Assembly: GCF_921293095.1 (NCBI RefSeq)
Contig: NC_060246.1
Location: 15,270,001 to 15,334,000 of the forward strand
Direction: 5' to 3'
DNA from: Ischnura elegans
Taxonomy: Eukaryota; Arthropoda; Insecta; Odonata; Coenagrionidae
DNA length: 64,000 nucleotides
Position numbers and translations under genes: made by a program. The notes below the pieces were generated by a model that saw only the letters and a program-made list of their open reading frames with translations, made no database searches and was not told the origin of the DNA. Positions 37,901 through 62,366 of this stretch are shown here, piece after piece (the first letter of the stretch is position 1; each line of letters opens with the position of its first letter).

Positions 37901-40900
37901 ATAGATATCTATAGATATCTATATATTGTCTATTTTCATCTATGAATAGATGTATATCTATTAGATATCTAATAGGCATCTTTAGTAGATCTATAATAGA
38001 TGTCTAATAGGCATCTCTAATAGATGCCTATTAGATAGGCATCTCTAATAGTTAGATATTAGATATCTAATGGGCATCTCTAATAGATGCCTATTAGATA
38101 TCTAATAGGCATCTATAGTAGATCTATAATAGATGTCTAATAGGCATCTCTAATAGATGCCTATTAAATAACTAATAGGCATCTATAAGAGATCTACAAT
38201 AGATGTCTAATAGGCATCTCTAATAATTGCCTATTAGACATCTATTAGATATCTAATTGGCACATATAATAGATGTCTAATAGGCATCCTAAGTAGATGC
38301 CTATTAGACATCTATTAGATACATCTCTGTTAGACATCTATTAGATGCGGTTTTGGATGCATCTCCAAAAGAGTCTTTTAAAACACGATTCATGAGCTAT
38401 GGAAGCGATTTAACATTTGATTAAGGGACAATTTTTTTGGTTCCTTTATACTCGAGCGATGGCGGACTTAGAAAAATTATGCCACACATCGAACGATGCC
38501 AACCATGCAAAATGCATGACATCAGCAATCATATGTTCCCCCCTAGCTGCTGTTCCTCCTATTAGAATTAAGGTGAAAAGTACTAATAAACTTAATCATC
38601 ATAATTACATAAGATTGTTCTTCCCCTAACTGACAAGGGGAGACCACGTACCTTGCTCTGCCTTTTTCAATGCCGTATTTTTTATGGCATTTGAAATGGC
38701 GAACACATCTCTGAACCGATAGTGGTTCCATGGAATGGGCCTTAGTTTGGCTGTAAATAATTAATTTCCGAGTGGAATTTTTAACAATTCTTATATAAAT
38801 CCCAAAATAGCTGTTTCTACACAACAGGTTCAGTTGGTGTAGTGGTGAGCGCGTTTGACTATAACATGGGGAGCACAGGTTCAATGCTATACATCATGAT
38901 TTTTTTTTATTTTTTCTAGTTTTCATTTTGATCATACAGCGACGTCGTTTTCATTAATGTTATTTGCATCAAGCATAGGCATGAGAATTTTTTTTATTAT
39001 AGATATTGATAAGTCTAAAACAGATAAGTAGATATCTAATAGACACCTACAGTAGACATCTGATAGATATCTACAGTAGATATCTAATAGACATCTACAG
39101 TAGATATCTATTAGACCAGCTGCCATTTTGACAATAATATATCTAATAGATATCTACGATAGATGTCTATTAGATACCTATTTATCTGTCGGTAGATATC
39201 TATTAGACATCTAATAGATGTTTATTTTCCGTGTGGGATACGTGTAGGTAATCCGTTCGCATACGATGACGATATTTTCATTAACTATTTCCGTGCGTCA
39301 AAAGTTGTTACTTAATTTTTAAGTAGATATAGCGGATGAGCTAAAAGTTCGCTTGTAGTCAAAAAGTTAGGAATACTTTTAACGGATGCTCTGCTAAAGT
39401 GAACGGGGGAACGGGCCCATTCCTCTTCCCGGGGCCGGCTTTTATTTGCTTTCTGTGCTACATTTGCTAGCAGATTCCTTACTTGTTTCGAAAAGCTGTA
39501 GGTAGTTTGAAATATCCGCTATTAAATGTTTTATATTTTAAGATTCTCGTGGCATAACGGTTCATGAGGGAGGATATCTAAGAAACATAGGGCAAGAAAT
39601 TTTTTTTGGCAGTAAGGCAATCTTCAGTAAGTCGATGCGTAAAGGACAAATGTCGTCCACAAATCAAGGAAAGAATGATAGTCTCATATTGATGTTTTAA
39701 CTTTATACAGCTACCGAAACATAAGCCTCTGATAATAAAATTAATGAAACTTAAAGTTTCAATTTCATCTTTAGATTTCGTGCATTGGCTGGATTTATAA
39801 GGCTTTTGGGGGCAAATGATAGCAGCCATGAGACAATATGGTGGATCATCGGCAACATGGCGTCCGGTGACAATGTAAACAAGTGTGGCTCCTGTTATAT
39901 TAGCCTCGACATGATGGAAAAACTTGTCCTTTGTGGGATATGTCTGAATTACTTTCACCTTAAATGCTCAAAGTTGAATGAGCTCAGTTTTAAAGTCGTC
40001 CAAGAAAACCAGTCACTTTTCTGGACCTGTCTAAATTGCACTGTCAAAAAACTTCGTGCTGTCTTCAAGATGGCTGACACGATTACTGTACTTGCTACAG
40101 AAGTGGAGCACCTTAAAATGAAATTAAGCAGTTTAACCCTGGGAAAAGACTGCAGTATACGTATAGCTGAGAAGTCGCATGTTTCCACAATCATTCCTAA
40201 ACGTGGGGAAACTAACGTTTCGTCTGAATCTGGAGCTATTCCTGTTCCTCCAGCGGTTATTGATATTCTCCCGCAAGGAAGAAACGCTGAATTTGAAAAT
40301 GCAGTAATCGGAACTGTTGGTGACATTTCTGACAAAATTAGCAATAATCAAAATGAAGCTGATGATCCTGTGAACGACGGCTTTCAAGAGTTTATCTCCA
40401 AAAAGAAAAGGAGAACAAATCAACAGGTACGTAATCAGCAGACGGACAATACCCAAAAATGTACTCGAGCAGCAAACCAGGAGTCGACGAACTCATTCAG
40501 AGGACATAAGCCCAAAAATAAACGCAATCAATGTGTTTTTGGGACAAACAAGGAAGTGGAAACCTTCACGGCGATCCCTAGACGAGCCTGGATATTTCTC
40601 GGGCGCATTAATCCAAAAACTACTACCAATGAAATATTAGGTTTCCTGCGACGCAAATTTATTGATAGGGAGTTTGAGTGTGAAGAAGTTAAAAGAAGTA
40701 AAAAGAGTGTTTCATTTAAGATTGAGGCCGATTTAACTCTTCTTGATAAATTACTCAGTCGTGAACTCTGGCCCCTGGATGCATGTATAAAGCGATTTAT
40801 TTTTCGCAAGCCCTTCGCCCGCAGTGATAGGGTAAATGTATCGATGGTAAATGATGAAAGTGTCGGGGAAAATCATACAGATCTACCCTTGGTGGACCCA

Positions 40901-43900
40901 TCTGGGTTGTCGCAGGATCACTCGGGAACTGGACCTCGGGAAATTCCAGTGAACACTGTGTCGTATAATACAAGATCGAAATCTAAGTGACTAGGAGAAG
41001 ATGGAAACTTGCTCAAGTTTCTTTATTTAAACATTCGATCTCTCAGAAATAAGACTACTGATTTAGAGGTCCTTCTTCAAGAAAAGAAGAGTGATGTTTT
41101 ATTGGTAACAGAACATTGGCTGTTAAGTGACGAAATACAATGCTATGCTATCAATGACATGAAACTTGCAGCTTCGTTTTGTAGACAGGATAACAGAGGG
41201 GGAGGTGTTGCAATTTATTGCAAACCTTCCTTGTCTTTTTCATGCAAGAAGACGAAACATAACATTGAAAAAGTCCATGAATGTGCATCAGTAATCTTAA
41301 GAGCATATAAACTCAGTCTAGGGGTAATTGTGACGTATAGATCTCCAAGTGCCTCTTTCATCTCTTTCTTACAGGAATTCAGTGACACAATTCAATTTGT
41401 GCTAAGTTGTAATGTTAACTACCTAATAATCCTTGGTGATTTTAACATTGATTTAAAAAGTCCCTCTATCCAACGTGAAGAACTTGGTGCCCTGTTTCAA
41501 TCTTTTGGCTTAGCAGTAATTAACGATGTCCCCACGAGGGTAACTTCTCAATCTTCTACTCTTATCGACCTAGTTGTAACTAACTTACCAAATAAGAGGA
41601 TTTTGTCTAATACCATATTTAGTCATATGTCTGACCATTGTGTCCTTGATATTGAGGTGAAGCTTGATGATTTTAAATCTACTGCACCAATATATATTAC
41701 TAAACGTTTTTATAATGATAGCAGCGTTGATGAATTTCTTAAGAGTTTGGCATGCGTCATTTGGGAGGATGAGAATTACATTTCTGATGTCGATATTAAA
41801 TTTAACTCCTTCCTTAACAAATTTTTATTAAATTTTAACCATTCCTTTCCTTTAAAAACAATAAAGTCTACCTGTAAAAGGAAAAATGTCAAATTCACGT
41901 CGGAGCTGATGGACATGAGTATTAGAGTAAGAGATTTACATCGTCAATGTAAATTTTCTGATCCATCGCTTTATAATGAGTATAAAGTACTTCTGCACAA
42001 TTATAAAACTCAAATCAAGGAGTTTAAGAAAAATTATTACAGCCAGTGTATCTCCTTATCTAATAATTCATGCAAAGCAGCATGGAATGTTATTAAGCAG
42101 CAGACGAATAATAAACCCACCCAACAGTCGCCACCTTTCATAAAGTTTAAGGATATTGCTGTTTCAAAGCCCGAAAACATAGCAAATTGTTTTAATAAAC
42201 AGTTCTGTCAAGTTAATGATGATAGCATTCCATCCACTATCAAAGCGATGAGTACTTCTGCCTCAATATTTCTTTTTCCCACAGATCCTGCCGAGGTTGA
42301 AGATGTCATAAAATCTCTCGCTAATAAATGGTCTGTCGGAAGTGATGGGGTACCTATGCCTATTATTAAGCTAGCTGCTAAAATTATTTCTACCCCTCTA
42401 TCGGATATCTTCAATTTATCAATCTGCAATGGTCATTTTCCGACAAATTTAAAATTTTCTGTGTTATGCCCAATTCATAAAAAGGGATCTTTGAGTGACT
42501 CAAATAACTATAGACCCATAGCACTACTTTCTGTTTTCTCGAAAATCTTTGAAAAACTCTTTTACAACCGTATCATTGTCTATCTGTGTAAATTTAATTT
42601 ATTGAATCTCTCCCAACATGGCTTTATTAAAGGCAAGTCAACTATGTCTGCTGTTTTTCAGCTTGTTAATGACATTATCTTAGGTCTTGCCAACCAGAAA
42701 GCAATTATTGGGATTTTTTATGATTTAACAAAGGCATTTGATACTGTTAACCATTGCATATTGTACAGTAAACTTGTCCAAATCGGAATTAATGGCAATG
42801 CTTTAGCTTGGATAAAATCCTATTTAACTAATCGTAAGCAGGTAGTGCAATTAAACACTAATTGTAATGGTGATGTTAATCAGAACTACTCAGATGTCCT
42901 TATTTCAAATTGTGGAGTGCCCCAAGGATCTATTCTAGGGCCACTATTATTCATCATTTTTATTAACGACCTACCATCTCATTTGCATCAGAGTAAAGTC
43001 ATTTTATATGCTGATGATGCTACTACTCTGAGTTTTGGTAATAAGACAGGGGAGGTGATTGATATGGCACGCTCATCAGTAGCACAGATGATTGACTGGT
43101 GTAAAAGTAATAACTTAAAATTGAATGGAAATAAAACATGTTTTTTAAATTTCCATCACAAAATTAGTCCACCAGAAACGAGTCCTCTACTTAAGACTAA
43201 TTCATCAACAGCCATTCAGCAGTCTAGCTCTACAAAATTTTTAGGGTTGAAATTAACTGAAAACCTTGATTGGCAATATCATATTGAGGATTTAGTTAGC
43301 AAAATGGCAACGGGAATATATATGATTCGCAAATTGGCTCCAACTACTTCATTAGAAATACTGAAATTGATATATTATGCCAAAATTCATTCTCACTTGG
43401 CTTATTGTGTAGTTTTATGGGGAAACACAAGTGCTGCTGCTAGAGCATTCTCTATGCAAAAAAGAGCCTTGAAAGTTATGGCAAATGTGTCCATCAGGTC
43501 TCCTGGAAAGCCATTATTTCTAAAATATAATATAATGACACTACCGAGTATGTACATTTTTTACTGTGCATTATTTGTAAAAAAGAACCCTACCTTATTT
43601 TTACCAAACTCCTCGGTTCATGCCTATCTGACCCGTGGGAGTGAAAATATACATATTTTACAACAATTATGTGCCAAAAGAGGTCCACATCACTCTGCCT
43701 CGCTTATTTTTAACAAATTGCCTACGAGTATAAAACATATTTCAAATATTAATGTTTTTAAGACAGAATTAAAAATTTTTTTACAGCCTAAGGGTTATTA
43801 TAATGTAAATGAATTTTTGTCTGATAGTTAATGACAACATGTATGTTTTGATGTTCTTCCTGACAATGTTCTATGTCACATGTTTGACCCATAGAACAAT

Positions 43901-46900
43901 AAAGATATTATTATTATTATTATAGTTACACCATTGGAAGGAGAGGAAGGGGGTTAGAACTACAATAGGATGTCATGTTCTAACTCTATCCATTACATGC
44001 ACAATTCACGAATATTATAATACTGCACGGTACAAATTTCTTCTGCTTCTTCTCGCCCGTGATTTGCGTTCTTCACTTGTTTTAGAGATCTTCAGCGTCT
44101 GCCGCTAGCTTAGTGTTTAAAGAAAATCCAAATTTATCCTTTAATAAGAGTCCAATTCGGTTAAGAAACATATAATTAATTTTTTATTCACGTTGGAACA
44201 AACTTCCTTCTCAAAAAAATGACTAGTATATAAAAAAGTGAACCAAACTTATAGTACCAATTATGATTCTCATACTCGCCTGCAGAAAGGGCGTTAAGAC
44301 TTTTGGCCGGGCCATACGATATGGCCCCTCGAGAGTGGAATCGGTTTAGGCCGTAATTTCGGGTCAGACCATAAGAAACTTACGGCCGGCCATACGTATG
44401 GCCCCGTTTAGTAGAATAGCCCTGCTGAAGGCAAGCAATGGAAACCGATTATTTTTCAATGATATCTTACATTTTTCATTGGATAGCTTGTCATCCATAG
44501 TCGAAAGCCAGCCTCTAATACAGTGGCACCACTCAGCGAGTTCACAATGTTCTCCAAATTGGACATCCAAGGGCCAGCCAAGTGGATGTTCTCCAAGCAC
44601 ACCCACTGGCCTTTGAGTTGGGCATCTTGTATTGCATTCTCTGCCAGGATATCCTGATTTTTGTAAGAAATGAGGAATTTCATTTTAGGAGATCAGGTGT
44701 GATCTTTGGATGCTAATGAATGAACACAAACATTGTGATATGTTTACTTTATTACTCATCAACACCTCACATCAAGCCTACTTATTAAGAGCAATCATAA
44801 ATCAATTGAACAAGTGTCTTCTCCCCAGATTCTGGGTGTATGTTTGAGTTCAAATCTTTCTTGGACCCAACATACTGATCTCTTGAGTCATAAACTAAGT
44901 TCCACATGTTACTTCCTGAGACAACTTAGTAGTACGGTGAGAAGGGATACACTTGTTAGTCTGTACTACGGGGAGTTTTATTCCCATATCATAAACAGCA
45001 TCATTTTCTGGGGTTCGTCTCATTGCGCATTTTCCAACGTCAAAAAAAGGCTGTCAGAATCATAGCCCATAAGCCATTCAGACATTCATGCAGACCCTTA
45101 TTCAAGGAGCTAGGCTTTCTACCAATTCCTTGCATTTACATAATGATTACAGTGTTGTACATCAAATCAAATATTGAAACAATATTAGGGTATTCATTTT
45201 GTGAAGGCCGTTCTTTTCCCCACAGCATTTATTTTGCGAAGGCCGTTCTTTTCCTCACAGCATTCTTTTTTCGGAGGGCATTATTTTTTTGGAGGCCATT
45301 CGTTTCCTCTGGCTGTTCATTTGGGATCTCGCGTTCATTTTAATTTCGTGTTCATTTGAACATTTGCGTTCGATGAACAGGATGCGATGGTTCAGGTTTG
45401 CAGTCAATTTACAGGTCGGTTATCTGTTCGTAAGTTGTGCTATAGTTCAAAGTTAATTTAAACATTAGGTTAAAACTTTAGACAAAATTAGTAATATTAA
45501 TGCAAAAATCTATTTCAGCAAATGGAAAAGTTAAACGTAAATTGTTTAACTATGTTATATCCACTACATATTTTGCTATTAAATTATTCGTACTGGAATT
45601 AACTTTTCACTGGGTCAATCCGTATTTTCCCCTGCTTTAAGAGGTCTGAACTGATGATTTTAGGAAACAAAAATTTGGCTTCAACTTTCCTCAAATTACT
45701 TGCTTGTAGTGTAACTACACATCGAAGGGGAAGGACCTGGTACTCTTCTGGAAAAGCCTACGGAGGCATATATCCATCATTTTCAAAGGAATAAAATCAA
45801 TATGTTACCTGCGGCCATTTTATTTGATGACATTAGGTTTTTCACGTCGCGACATTTTATTAATTTTATTGTGACCACATAGCTTGATTGCACATAAATA
45901 CACTTCAAAGCGTCAAATCTTTCTTTGCTTTCCATGTTTAATATTTGAATATGTTACACAATTCCATGGGTGTAACATTTTTACTATTTTTTTTACATTC
46001 TACCAAAAGTACTAATTTAGCAATTAAACTGATAATTTCTCACTGTCTTACGCATGCTATTATTGACAGTTAATTGCATTGTTAGAGTGGATAGATACCA
46101 GGTGCAGGCTATAACGAGGAGAAATAAAGTGATATTTTACCAAGGAGTCTAAGAGAGGGATTCACAAATTACATTTATACTAAAAATATTTATAAAGAAC
46201 AGTTAGCTGTGTATGAAAGTCTAAATTGCTCACAAGAGCAGCATTTAAAAAAACTTTTCTGGTGCTAAATATGCGAATAACATCAGACGCTGGGTTGATA
46301 AATATTAATTCTGGCTTAATCTACAAGTGGACAGCAGATATTGTCCTGCACACAGATAACCAAGTAAAGGCCCAGGACAGAATTTGCTTGAAATTACTAT
46401 GACAAGCTGCACAAACCATATGATACCACACTAAGCTTCATTTACTCTTAACGTTCGATGAACAGTATTTTCTACCTGAATGACCGTGACTGTTCACCAT
46501 GAACAGATATTTTGAACTGTTCTTTTTAGTGAACAGGTTCACAGTGAACTGTTCATCAAAATGAACAGTTTAACCCACCTCTAGATGACATGCACGAGAT
46601 TTAAAAAAGAATGAGACCAAACACACATCACAATTTTCAATGAAACAAATGCTGTATGAGCACACTCACATATTTCGAGACAGATTGGAAATGCTAGCTG
46701 CATAAATCATGCAGCTCAGCAGCTTCACCTCGAAGTTTATGACATCACAAAGTTGCAAAATTGGCCGTGTTGGCCACCTGGCTCCCTCCTTTGCAGTCTT
46801 ATTGCTTGAAAGACAGAAGGAGCACATTCCTTACTCTCTACTTCTCCTTCACACGCTTCTGCTACCCCACCCCTCACTGAGCAGTCGTCTCATTCTGTAC

Positions 46901-59731: not shown

Positions 59732-62366
59732 CACGTTGCGTACCGGGGTATTTAAATTCCTTTTAACCCTCTGTTCCGGCGGTTTTTTAAACATCACTCA
59801 CTTAGCAAACCTTCTATTTGAAAAAATGCCATAACTTATTTAAAAATTAAAATTTTTTCATGCAATTTTGAATGAAATACTTAAAAATAATTTCAGAATC
59901 TTTTTCTGGTGTGATACTCCATGAAACACTTTCCCTTGTGGAGTGGAATGCCGCAAGTTGAGCACACATACCTTGTCTCTTTTCTAATTTTTCTCATAGC
60001 GCACATTTTGCATCTTCTTGTGTGATATTTTTTCGTTCCCTTCCCCACAATAGGAACAAGATGGTGTTTGCTAAGGTCTCTCGATAAGCGCTGTGGGTGA
60101 TCTCTTGAAGGGGCCCGTCCTGTTGGCTTATCATCGCAGTCATCGTCCAAGAATGATTCACTCGACTCCTGCCTACTCGCTGCCAACTCTTTGACGGTCT
60201 GGAGCAAAAAGCTTTTGAATCGAATGCCATTATTTTTGTTTAGAGTTTTATAAACTCTGAAAGCATTAAAAAGAGCGCAATTTATTAGCCAAAGCACGAC
60301 TTTCTTCGACTATTTCATTGTTTTTCTCACGATGGAGTAATAGGATAAGTACATATCCGCCCTGTCAACACCTTTCATACACTCATTGTAATTTAGAATA
60401 CAAGTGGGTTTTCTGATTGCCTGTCCTGTAACCCAATCTTTTACCTTTGAGTTACCCATGCTGGCGTTATGAACAGTGCTAATCATTCTTACTTCCCTCT
60501 TGTCTTTCCAAACCACTAGTAACACCTCACCTTTACGAGAGAACGTGCTCTGTCCCTTTTTCAAAGTTTTTGCCTCGCTCATCAACGTGGGAGGGAGTCC
60601 CCGATTTGGTCTTATGGTTCCACACACTCTTACTTTGTTATCTAAGAGCAGTTCTGCAATTTTCACACTATTATAATAGTTGTCTTGATAGACATGATGC
60701 CAAAGATTGAGATGTGGCTTCAAAAGAGACAAGATGGTTTGTTCTAATTTTTTCCCCTGAATAAATTTCTAAATTACTAATGTAGCCATAATCACTTTCA
60801 CAAACCATTCGAACTAGTAAACCATATTTTACAATTTTTGCAGGATTATAGGTCTTGATTTTCAATCATCCTCTCCATGGAATCATGGCTTCATCAAGTG
60901 ACAATTCCTGCTTTGGTTTATACACATTTTGAAATTTTTCAACTAAGTATTCCAGGGTGGGTCTTATTTTATATAGTCTATCCGAAGTGTCTGAGAATGC
61001 TTCGTTATCACTAAAATACCATGCTTTCCATATCTGCTCAAATCTGTTTCTCGTCAGTAGGTCTCTAAATATTTTTGTTTCGATGAAAGGATCTGTACTC
61101 CAATACTCCTTCAGTGTATCTTTCCTCACTTGACCCATCAGAATCAAAATAGAAAAGAATTTTTTCATTTCAGCCATGGTTATGTTTGACCACTTCCCTG
61201 TTTTTGGCGATTCTTTGTATTTATGCTTATTTTGACAGTAATACAAATTGGATTGATGGCACATCAATTCAAAAAAATCATTACCAAGAAATAGTGAGAC
61301 TATGTCAAGGATGTTATTGGAATTTTCTGGTAATCGCTTCACTCCAGGTTGGCCCAAAAATTGCTCTAAATGTCTCTCAAAATCTATTTTTTCCCATGAA
61401 GTAGAACTTCCTGCCAAAGTATTGTCTTCATTTTCACTCGCATCGGAGTCACTTTCACTGATAACTAGAGGAATACGTTTTCTAGTTTTCATATTCACCA
61501 CAACATCAGAATCGCTTTCACTTTCGTCGTTATCTTCGTCATACCCTAATGGTACATCTGACAAATCATCAGCACACAAGTCTAACAAAATTTCTTCTTC
61601 ATCCAAAGTGTTGTCCTTCCGATGTGATGCCATAATATGGAATATTCTTATGAGTGGTTTTTAGAGCACAAATGCGTGCAAACCTTCAAGCGAGAAAAAC
61701 TTGACACCAAATGTTCTATTCACTTGGACTCAGGGAAACACCAACTGCTCTTGACACATTAGGAGAGGAAACTAACCCAGAGGCAGGAAACAAGTAAGAG
61801 AGCATCATCTCCCTCCATGGCATGGACGAAAAGAACTGGGGGCCTCATTGTGAGTCCCTCAGTTCCTTTTGTCGAGAATGTTTATGTTGACGGAGCAGAG
61901 CAGTCCACTTGCTGAGAGTGCATCTCGAAGAAGCGGCGTTGAAGATAAGGGTCAAACTCGCTAGATAAAACAAGGCCATGTGGATAAACTCTTTGGAAAT
62001 AATAAGCCAAGTGTGTGGGGTAACTCAAGGAAAAAGATAAATAAGAAGCCAACGCTGGTAAGAAGAGGAACGCCGATTCTGGGTGGAGGTGTTGAGAATG
62101 GAAATATGTGCCTATTCGGGCGTAATGCCTTTGGTTTAAACATGGTTAAAAAGCTAATGTTTAGAATATAACTTTACCCATTCAAACTTAATGATGTATC
62201 AATTCATTATTAATAACGAACAACAACTGAAAACGTTCTAATGAATACGGATTGCACGCTTTAAAATTGTTTTGGTTGTCACGCCCAAATGACGAGAATC
62301 TTCGTCATCCGTCCGGAACGTTCGGGAAAAAAATGACGAGAATTCTCGCCACCCGTACGCAACGTG
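59732..62366 (-). mobile_element. piggyBac transposon with TTAA target duplication
   Basis: TTAA at 59728-59731 and 62367-62370 flanks the mirrored ends CACGTTGCGTAC. Just inside the right end GACGAGAATTCTCG and GACGAGAATCTTCGTC repeat as palindromes. It encodes one transposase on the minus strand, now broken. Full-length structure, 2,635 bases. Confidence 0.95.
59893..61633 (-). pseudogene. piggyBac transposase pseudogene
   Basis: It starts MASHRKDNTLDEEE (ATG at 61633). An acidic N-terminus follows (DNDESESDSD), then GKWSNITMAEMKKFFSILIL and KPKQELSLDEAMIPWRG with a catalytic Asp. A TGA at 60866-60868 replaces the next residue. The frame then resumes KIKTYNPAKIVKYGLLVRM. One extra base in the GGGGAAAAAA run (about 60,755) shifts the frame. 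It then reads LWHHVYQDNYYNSVKIAELL and NECMKGVDRADMYLSYY, carrying the second and third acidic positions. A TAG at 60310-60312 interrupts VRKTMK/SKKVVLWL. The C-terminal Cys-rich domain (RRCKMCA, CSTCGIPLHKGKCFMEYH) ends at 59893. Two nonsense codons and one frameshift: inactive but recent. Confidence 0.95.

Follow-up and report, generated by a model that had tools for sequence, protein, structure and literature searches.

Probable programmed readthrough at a conserved UGA-CUAG junction between ORF1 and ORF2 of a LINE lineage in Ischnura elegans

Introduction

How ORF2 is translated in two-ORF LINEs is a long-standing question, and the usual answer is reinitiation. For SART1 and mammalian L1, which like the element described here carry endonuclease and reverse transcriptase in ORF2, the accepted view is a restart at an AUG or close to one (PMC5972666). 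Other LINEs have 2A peptides, and these too represent translational recoding inside a LINE (PMC5972666). A 2A peptide separates its products co-translationally, whereas readthrough joins them. In Paramecium the genetic code is changed and UGA is the sole stop. For the group 3 non-LTR retrotransposons of Paramecium, a separate ciliate clade, there is a proposal that the ORF1 stop is read through, and the cited parts of that report give no stop context (PMC5405496). Among LINEs the idea thus has a precedent. Premature stops inside L1 ORF2 are likely subject to low-level readthrough (PMC4176336), which differs in kind from readthrough of an ORF1 stop. In the literature that we searched, with subscription papers and Repbase notes lying outside it, we found neither UGA-CUAG in LINEs nor ORF1-stop readthrough beyond Paramecium.

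Outside the LINEs, readthrough contexts have been sorted into types. The alphavirus non-structural polyprotein is the type II case (UGA-CUA or UGA-CGG), in which an enzyme lies downstream in frame and an extended 3′ stem-loop is added (PMC3542737, PMC4132726). UGA-CUAG also directs efficient readthrough in four human genes, where, according to the cited parts of that study, 12 nt of 3′ sequence is enough and no conserved structure is needed (PMC4132726). The gammaretrovirus gag-pol junction is type III, a UAG-G followed by a pseudoknot, and there a structural-type protein comes first and the reverse transcriptase is reached through readthrough. A caution comes from the LTR element Tca2, for which a read-through proposal failed a reporter test (PMC7175516), so sequence alone can mislead on claims of this kind.

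Results

We analysed a 64,000-nucleotide stretch of the Ischnura elegans genome (the window), which contains at about 39.8–43.9 kb a LINE, presumably CR1-like, whose ORF1 and ORF2 lie in one shared frame with a single stop between them. Its features are as follows, in window coordinates.

39755–40987, plus strand: open frame of ORF1, 411 codons, ending at the TGA at 40988–40990
39857–40990, plus strand: ORF1 from its first ATG to the TGA, 377 codons
about 39884–40039, plus strand: weak PHD-finger match in ORF1 (Pfam E 0.0025, below the cut-off)
40988–40990, plus strand: UGA stop of ORF1 and proposed readthrough site, from the reading of the frame and comparison of copies and families
40991–40994, plus strand: CUAG, the proposed 3′ readthrough context, in 12/12 copies of the window's own family (A) and in eight families at 43 places
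40991–43831, plus strand: ORF2, 946 codons, APE-type endonuclease and reverse transcriptase
41004–41021, plus strand: perfect 7-bp hairpin GAAACTT-GCTC-AAGTTTC, starting 13 nt after the stop
41030, plus strand: catalytic Asn of the endonuclease, codon 14 after the stop
41111, plus strand: catalytic Glu of the endonuclease, codon 41 after the stop
41159, plus strand: first in-frame ATG of ORF2, codon 57, beyond both Asn and Glu
about 42473–43255, plus strand: reverse transcriptase of ORF2 (Pfam)
43832–43923, plus strand: 3′ untranslated part with an (ATT)n tail at its end, read from the sequence

We take the 3′ end with its (ATT)n tail to be CR1/L2-like. A sequence-only reading of this DNA had described ORF1 as ending at TGA followed by CTAG with the same frame open for 946 codons into ORF2, no in-frame ATG ahead of the endonuclease Asn and Glu, and an ATG at 41001 that is out of the ORF2 frame and stops after nine codons, and on all of these points the window reads as described. 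The window has the type II arrangement of UGA then CUA and a long in-frame extension without its own start. The arrangement expected from SART1 and L1, an in-frame AUG at or just past the ORF1 stop and ahead of the endonuclease, is absent. In a PDB search, a family profile matched the L1 ORF2 protein 8uw3 at 2e-59, and the single endonuclease sequence gave chance-level hits only. Because the profile match begins at the eighth residue past the stop, that is, after about seven codons (profile position 3 being aligned to residue 8 of 8uw3), there is little room for an AUG before the endonuclease. A search with the ORF1 protein gave no match at E 0.001, so ORF1 was compared through the DNA of the loci only.

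Three other features of the window touch on mobile DNA or repeats. A second, related reverse transcriptase remnant (44769–45053) is 34% identical to ORF2 residues 730–827; a transposase part on the minus strand (60869–61660; Pfam DDE_Tnp_1_7, E 5.7e-36) is piggyBac-like; and short AGATATCTA / TAGACATCTA repeats form a dense block at 39000–39230, just 5′ of the LINE.

A 601-base query covering the junction found 33 places in the assembly of the same species (110 contigs, 1.72 Gb), and 30 of these were taken as loci. All 12 junction-spanning loci of family A (L057–L068, 93–100% identical) have TGA-CTAG; three further loci (L072–L074) begin past the junction and are uninformative on the stop context. 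The more diverged family B (L075–L086, 67–68% identical) has TGA-CTAG at 12/12 loci and in a thirteenth copy, L112, with 176–394 in-frame ORF1 codons ahead of it; the resulting 13/13 refers to copies read, L112 being among the three places beyond the 30 loci, the other two of which were left out. The expectation of the sequence-only reading that other copies would keep both UGA CUAG and the shared frame is thus borne out in families A and B.

Family C, with TGA-CTAG at 3/3 loci (L069–L071; G000:C5:60920255, C8:32271694, C4:65014143), has an ORF1 like that of the window to just past TGACTAGGA and then a different ORF2, which again has no Met ahead of the Asn. For L069 compared with the window, ORF1 is 98.7% identical and ORF2 36% identical, which argues for an ORF exchange at the junction; in all three loci, module exchange appears to have taken place at the putative readthrough junction, just after TGACTAGGA. 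CTAGGA is gone from L128, another family-C copy, which is decayed.

A degenerate pattern for the endonuclease start gave 171 matches in the same genome, compared with 23 for its reversed control. Among the first 30 of the matches listed, taken in genome order, 18 have an in-frame TGA-CTAG (family D eight, A three, H three, B two, I one and J one), and the remaining 12 comprise families E, F and G, the fused L111, whose downstream part has decayed, and matches that are either decayed or due to chance. We read 20 further loci that were picked for differing motif letters and so are not a random sample. Three of these have TGA-CTAG, one being again a family-C place; L123 has TGA-CTAT; L129 (family K) has an in-frame UGA-CAA between an ORF1 of 340 codons and an interrupted ORF2; and of the other 15, which include L128, 12 run into a stop no more than 141 codons from the Asn. 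In all, we counted 43 separate places with an in-frame TGA-CTAG (48 rows minus five places entered twice), and these fall into eight families: A, B, C, D, H, I, J and L. The ORF2 parts of these families are 27–58% identical. The fetched stretch ends with ORF2 still open in 5/12 copies of A, 6/13 of B, 2/3 of C, 6/8 of D and 1/2 of I, and ORF2 is interrupted in every copy of H (three), J (one) and L (one). In family J the in-frame ORF1 stretch is only 36 codons.

Not all relatives are built this way. In family E the ORF1 frame continues without a stop at the junction, yet is frame-shifted; in L111 ORF1 and ORF2 are fused with no stop at the junction; and L117/L131 and L132 have nearby ATGs. In family F (L099, L096) ORF1 ends in a different frame that a −1 shift would connect to ORF2, in which no Met precedes the Asn. 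The two frames, of which that of ORF1 was read in L099 only, overlap by about 42 codons. Family F may be a −1 frameshift family, or its copies may share an old indel. The sequence-only reading had called this strategy unusual for LINEs; judged from sequence, the UGA-CUAG arrangement appears to be common among relatives, though not universal (exceptions are E, F, G, K, L117/L131 and L132), and a readthrough strategy had already been proposed for the Paramecium elements.

Identity within one family is in part plain common descent. The comparison between families omits C, which has its ORF1 in common with A, and in the seven families aligned the TGA-CTAG 7-mer is 100% identical while the 30 bases 5′ of it average 31% and the 36 bases 3′ of it 28%, which is chance level. 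This is the drift of flanks around a retained UGA CUAG that the sequence-only reading had looked for, and when the relatives are counted in, the stop context lies far outside what chance would give. On a tree of the endonuclease–reverse transcriptase parts, the TGA-CTAG families form two groups with support of 96/96 and 81/94, families F, K and E fall among these groups, and J, H and L016, an element from a prokaryotic contig, are on long branches; this pattern fits an old trait with several losses.

One position in the tail of ORF1 is also alike among families. The penultimate codon (40982–40984 in the window) is Ser or Thr (xCx) in 7/7 of families A, B, D, H, I, J and L, and in 4/5 of the Poribacteria-MAG elements described below. 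This could be a 5′ context effect, or it may mean little because ORF1 tails are rich in Ser and Thr.

The sequence-only reading had also pointed to the hairpin, and the hairpin is indeed present, with 7 bp starting 13 nt past the stop, but it is neither conserved nor unusual. Such a hairpin arises in the same interval in 134/5000 shuffles and is found at 85/4014 positions of the element, and folding of the window junction gave z-scores from −1.0 to +0.1. Among ten families of the same genome, a perfect hairpin of at least 6 bp at +6 to +30 occurs in family A only. When stretches to +60, +100 and +150 were folded for the ten families, 29/30 z-scores were above −2, the lowest being −2.38 (family I, to +100), and up to +150 we did not find the extended 3′ stem-loop that is common, not universal, in type II readthrough. 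Since it is neither conserved nor unusual, the hairpin is probably not part of the readthrough signal, and we rejected it as a component. For the other elements, folded over +4 to +60, the lowest z-scores were −2.41 (L038) and −2.00 (L020). In L004 and L006 a short stem is predicted soon past the stop, no stronger than in shuffles.

A profile scan of bacterial and archaeal genome contigs with the family alignment gave 49 loci, most of which we read as eukaryotic LINE contaminants. Of 37 frames (window included) with a profile match beginning near the endonuclease start, 13 have at least 97 open codons directly 5′ in the same frame. In this count L028 and L031 represent the same element, and the match of L038 begins only at profile position 28; L039, whose 92 codons are unconvincing, is excluded from the in-frame set. 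Five elements from Poribacteria MAGs (L013, L020, L022, L026 and L027) form one clade separate from that of the window. Their ORF2s are 38–56% and their ORF1s 34–43% identical, with ORF1 tails that cannot be aligned, and in all five the frame is the same across a UGA that is followed by CUA in four (CUAG in L027) and by CUC in one. The first ORF2 Met is at codons 67–341. CTA accounts for 15.7% of the Leu codons of these five elements and the window, and the probability of at least 5/6 CTA is 5e-4 given Leu and 1e-8 given any codon, on the assumption that the six elements are independent. Poribacteria live in sponges, from which these elements might be derived. The ORF1 frame of L013 (L013:2–1474) has a 2A-like NPGP N-terminally and ends in UGA-CUA; if the NPGP is read as a 2A, there may be two recoding events in one element.

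Other elements have other contexts. L016, which we read as a LINE-like contaminant of a TM6 MAG, has an in-frame UAG-CAA-CUA (L016:1644–1655) between a 443-codon ORF1 and a 955-codon ORF2 that apparently has no Asn, the place of the Asn being set by eye; UAG-CAA-CUA is given as a type I context for Providence virus (PMC3542737). L004 and L006 have an in-frame UAG-G after a zinc-knuckle-like ORF1 end (L004:292–320; L006:416–445), where the knuckle match is below the Pfam cut-off in L004 and made by eye in L006, and ORF1 is shortened by the contig end in both. L028/L031 (UGA-CAA, with ATGs ahead of the Asn), L030 (UAA-UCU) and L038 (UAG-GAA) also have a shared frame and fit no nameable leaky class. 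Among viral contigs, the first query detected no LINE relative, and the profile yielded a single short reverse transcriptase match. Among the 84 genomes searched from the phylum of G001, three had matches, at known places, with one partial match (L056), and a protein search with the L013 ORF2 listed relatives, given without DNA.

The main rival to readthrough is termination–reinitiation, in which ORF2 is made as a separate protein by a ribosome that restarts near the ORF1 stop, at an AUG or a near-cognate codon, as is known for LINEs such as SART1 and mammalian L1 (PMC5972666). Families A, B, C, D, J and L and the five Poribacteria-MAG elements have no in-frame AUG ahead of the Asn. In family A there is a TTG at codon 7, but family B, L013, L020, L022, L026, L004 and L016 do not even have a CTG, GTG, TTG or ACG there, no start codon is common to all, and restart on a non-AUG codon is unlikely. 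Restart is possible in families H and I because an in-frame ATG lies near the Asn, 11 codons ahead of it in H (2/3 copies read) and three codons ahead in I (2/2). Reinitiation also leaves the retention of UGA-CUAG and the shared frame unexplained, and as the general explanation we consider it improbable.

Two further explanations are much less probable still. That the TGA arose by chance, as a nonsense mutation of an element with a single ORF, would agree with relatives in which PHD, endonuclease and reverse transcriptase are in one protein (P0054, P0064) and with the lack of a stop at the junction in family E and L111; against it, the stop and its context stand exactly at the ORF boundary in all 12 spanning copies and in seven other families, and for family A the copies already refute it. 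Decoding of the UGA as selenocysteine has the identity of the codon in its favour and is scarcely credible, given that other LINEs have UAG in the same place and that none of the 21 Rfam matches with E up to 5 in 39000–44500 is a SECIS, itself a weak test.

Discussion

We conclude that programmed readthrough of UGA-CUAG very probably yields a minor ORF1–ORF2 fusion, and the proposal of the sequence-only reading that ORF2 is made as such a fusion by leaky termination gains support from the copies, the eight families and the five distant elements. In the window element the frame is shared and an AUG is absent ahead of the endonuclease motifs, and across the diverged families the stop with its CUAG is conserved; that readthrough occurs, its efficiency and the activity of the fusion as an enzyme are what we infer from these sequences. 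Most ribosomes would halt at the ORF1 UGA and release the ORF1 protein, while a minority would decode the UGA by a near-cognate tRNA because of the leaky context, giving the fusion. The endonuclease–reverse transcriptase would then be made only as a C-terminal extension of ORF1, and the coat-like ORF1 protein would be in excess over the enzyme, by analogy with gag/gag-pol readthrough in retroviruses.

Each of the known systems differs from the window in some respect. Alphaviruses likewise have UGA then CUA(G) with the enzyme downstream in frame; unlike them, the window element is a DNA-resident retrotransposon, and its families lack a conserved extended stem-loop. OPRL1, OPRK1, AQP4 and MAPK10 have the same seven bases and, in the cited parts of the study, no conserved 3′ structure, but such mammalian genes gain a short tail (13 residues in MAPK10) rather than a 946-codon enzyme (PMC4132726). 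The gammaretroviral order of products is the one proposed here, and it is L004 and L006 that resemble type III by their UAG-G, whereas the window has UGA-CUAG. Unlike the Paramecium proposal, ours is based on a 7-base motif that diverged families have retained.

A wider reading goes further, and we lean towards it only slightly as a whole. Under it, readthrough would be a widespread and under-recognised control of the ratio of ORF1 to ORF1–ORF2 in LINEs; contexts known from viruses would have been reached independently, namely UGA-CUA(G) of type II in the window lineage and the Poribacteria-MAG group, UAG-CAA-CUA of type I in L016 and a type III-like UAG-G in L004 and L006; and the junction would be a boundary at which ORF1 and ORF2 are swapped, the part for which family C is the evidence.

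The proposed signal is seven bases long and can be tested in a short reporter, and it is kept over eight families whose flanks are at chance level and, less strictly, in a distant clade. If the proposal is true, LINEs would have a gag-pol-like ratio control and an ORF1–ORF2 fusion enzyme, they would have converged with RNA viruses, and the Paramecium LINE proposal would become general and testable. Annotations that begin ORF2 at an internal Met, and thus lose the catalytic Asn, would then need correction.
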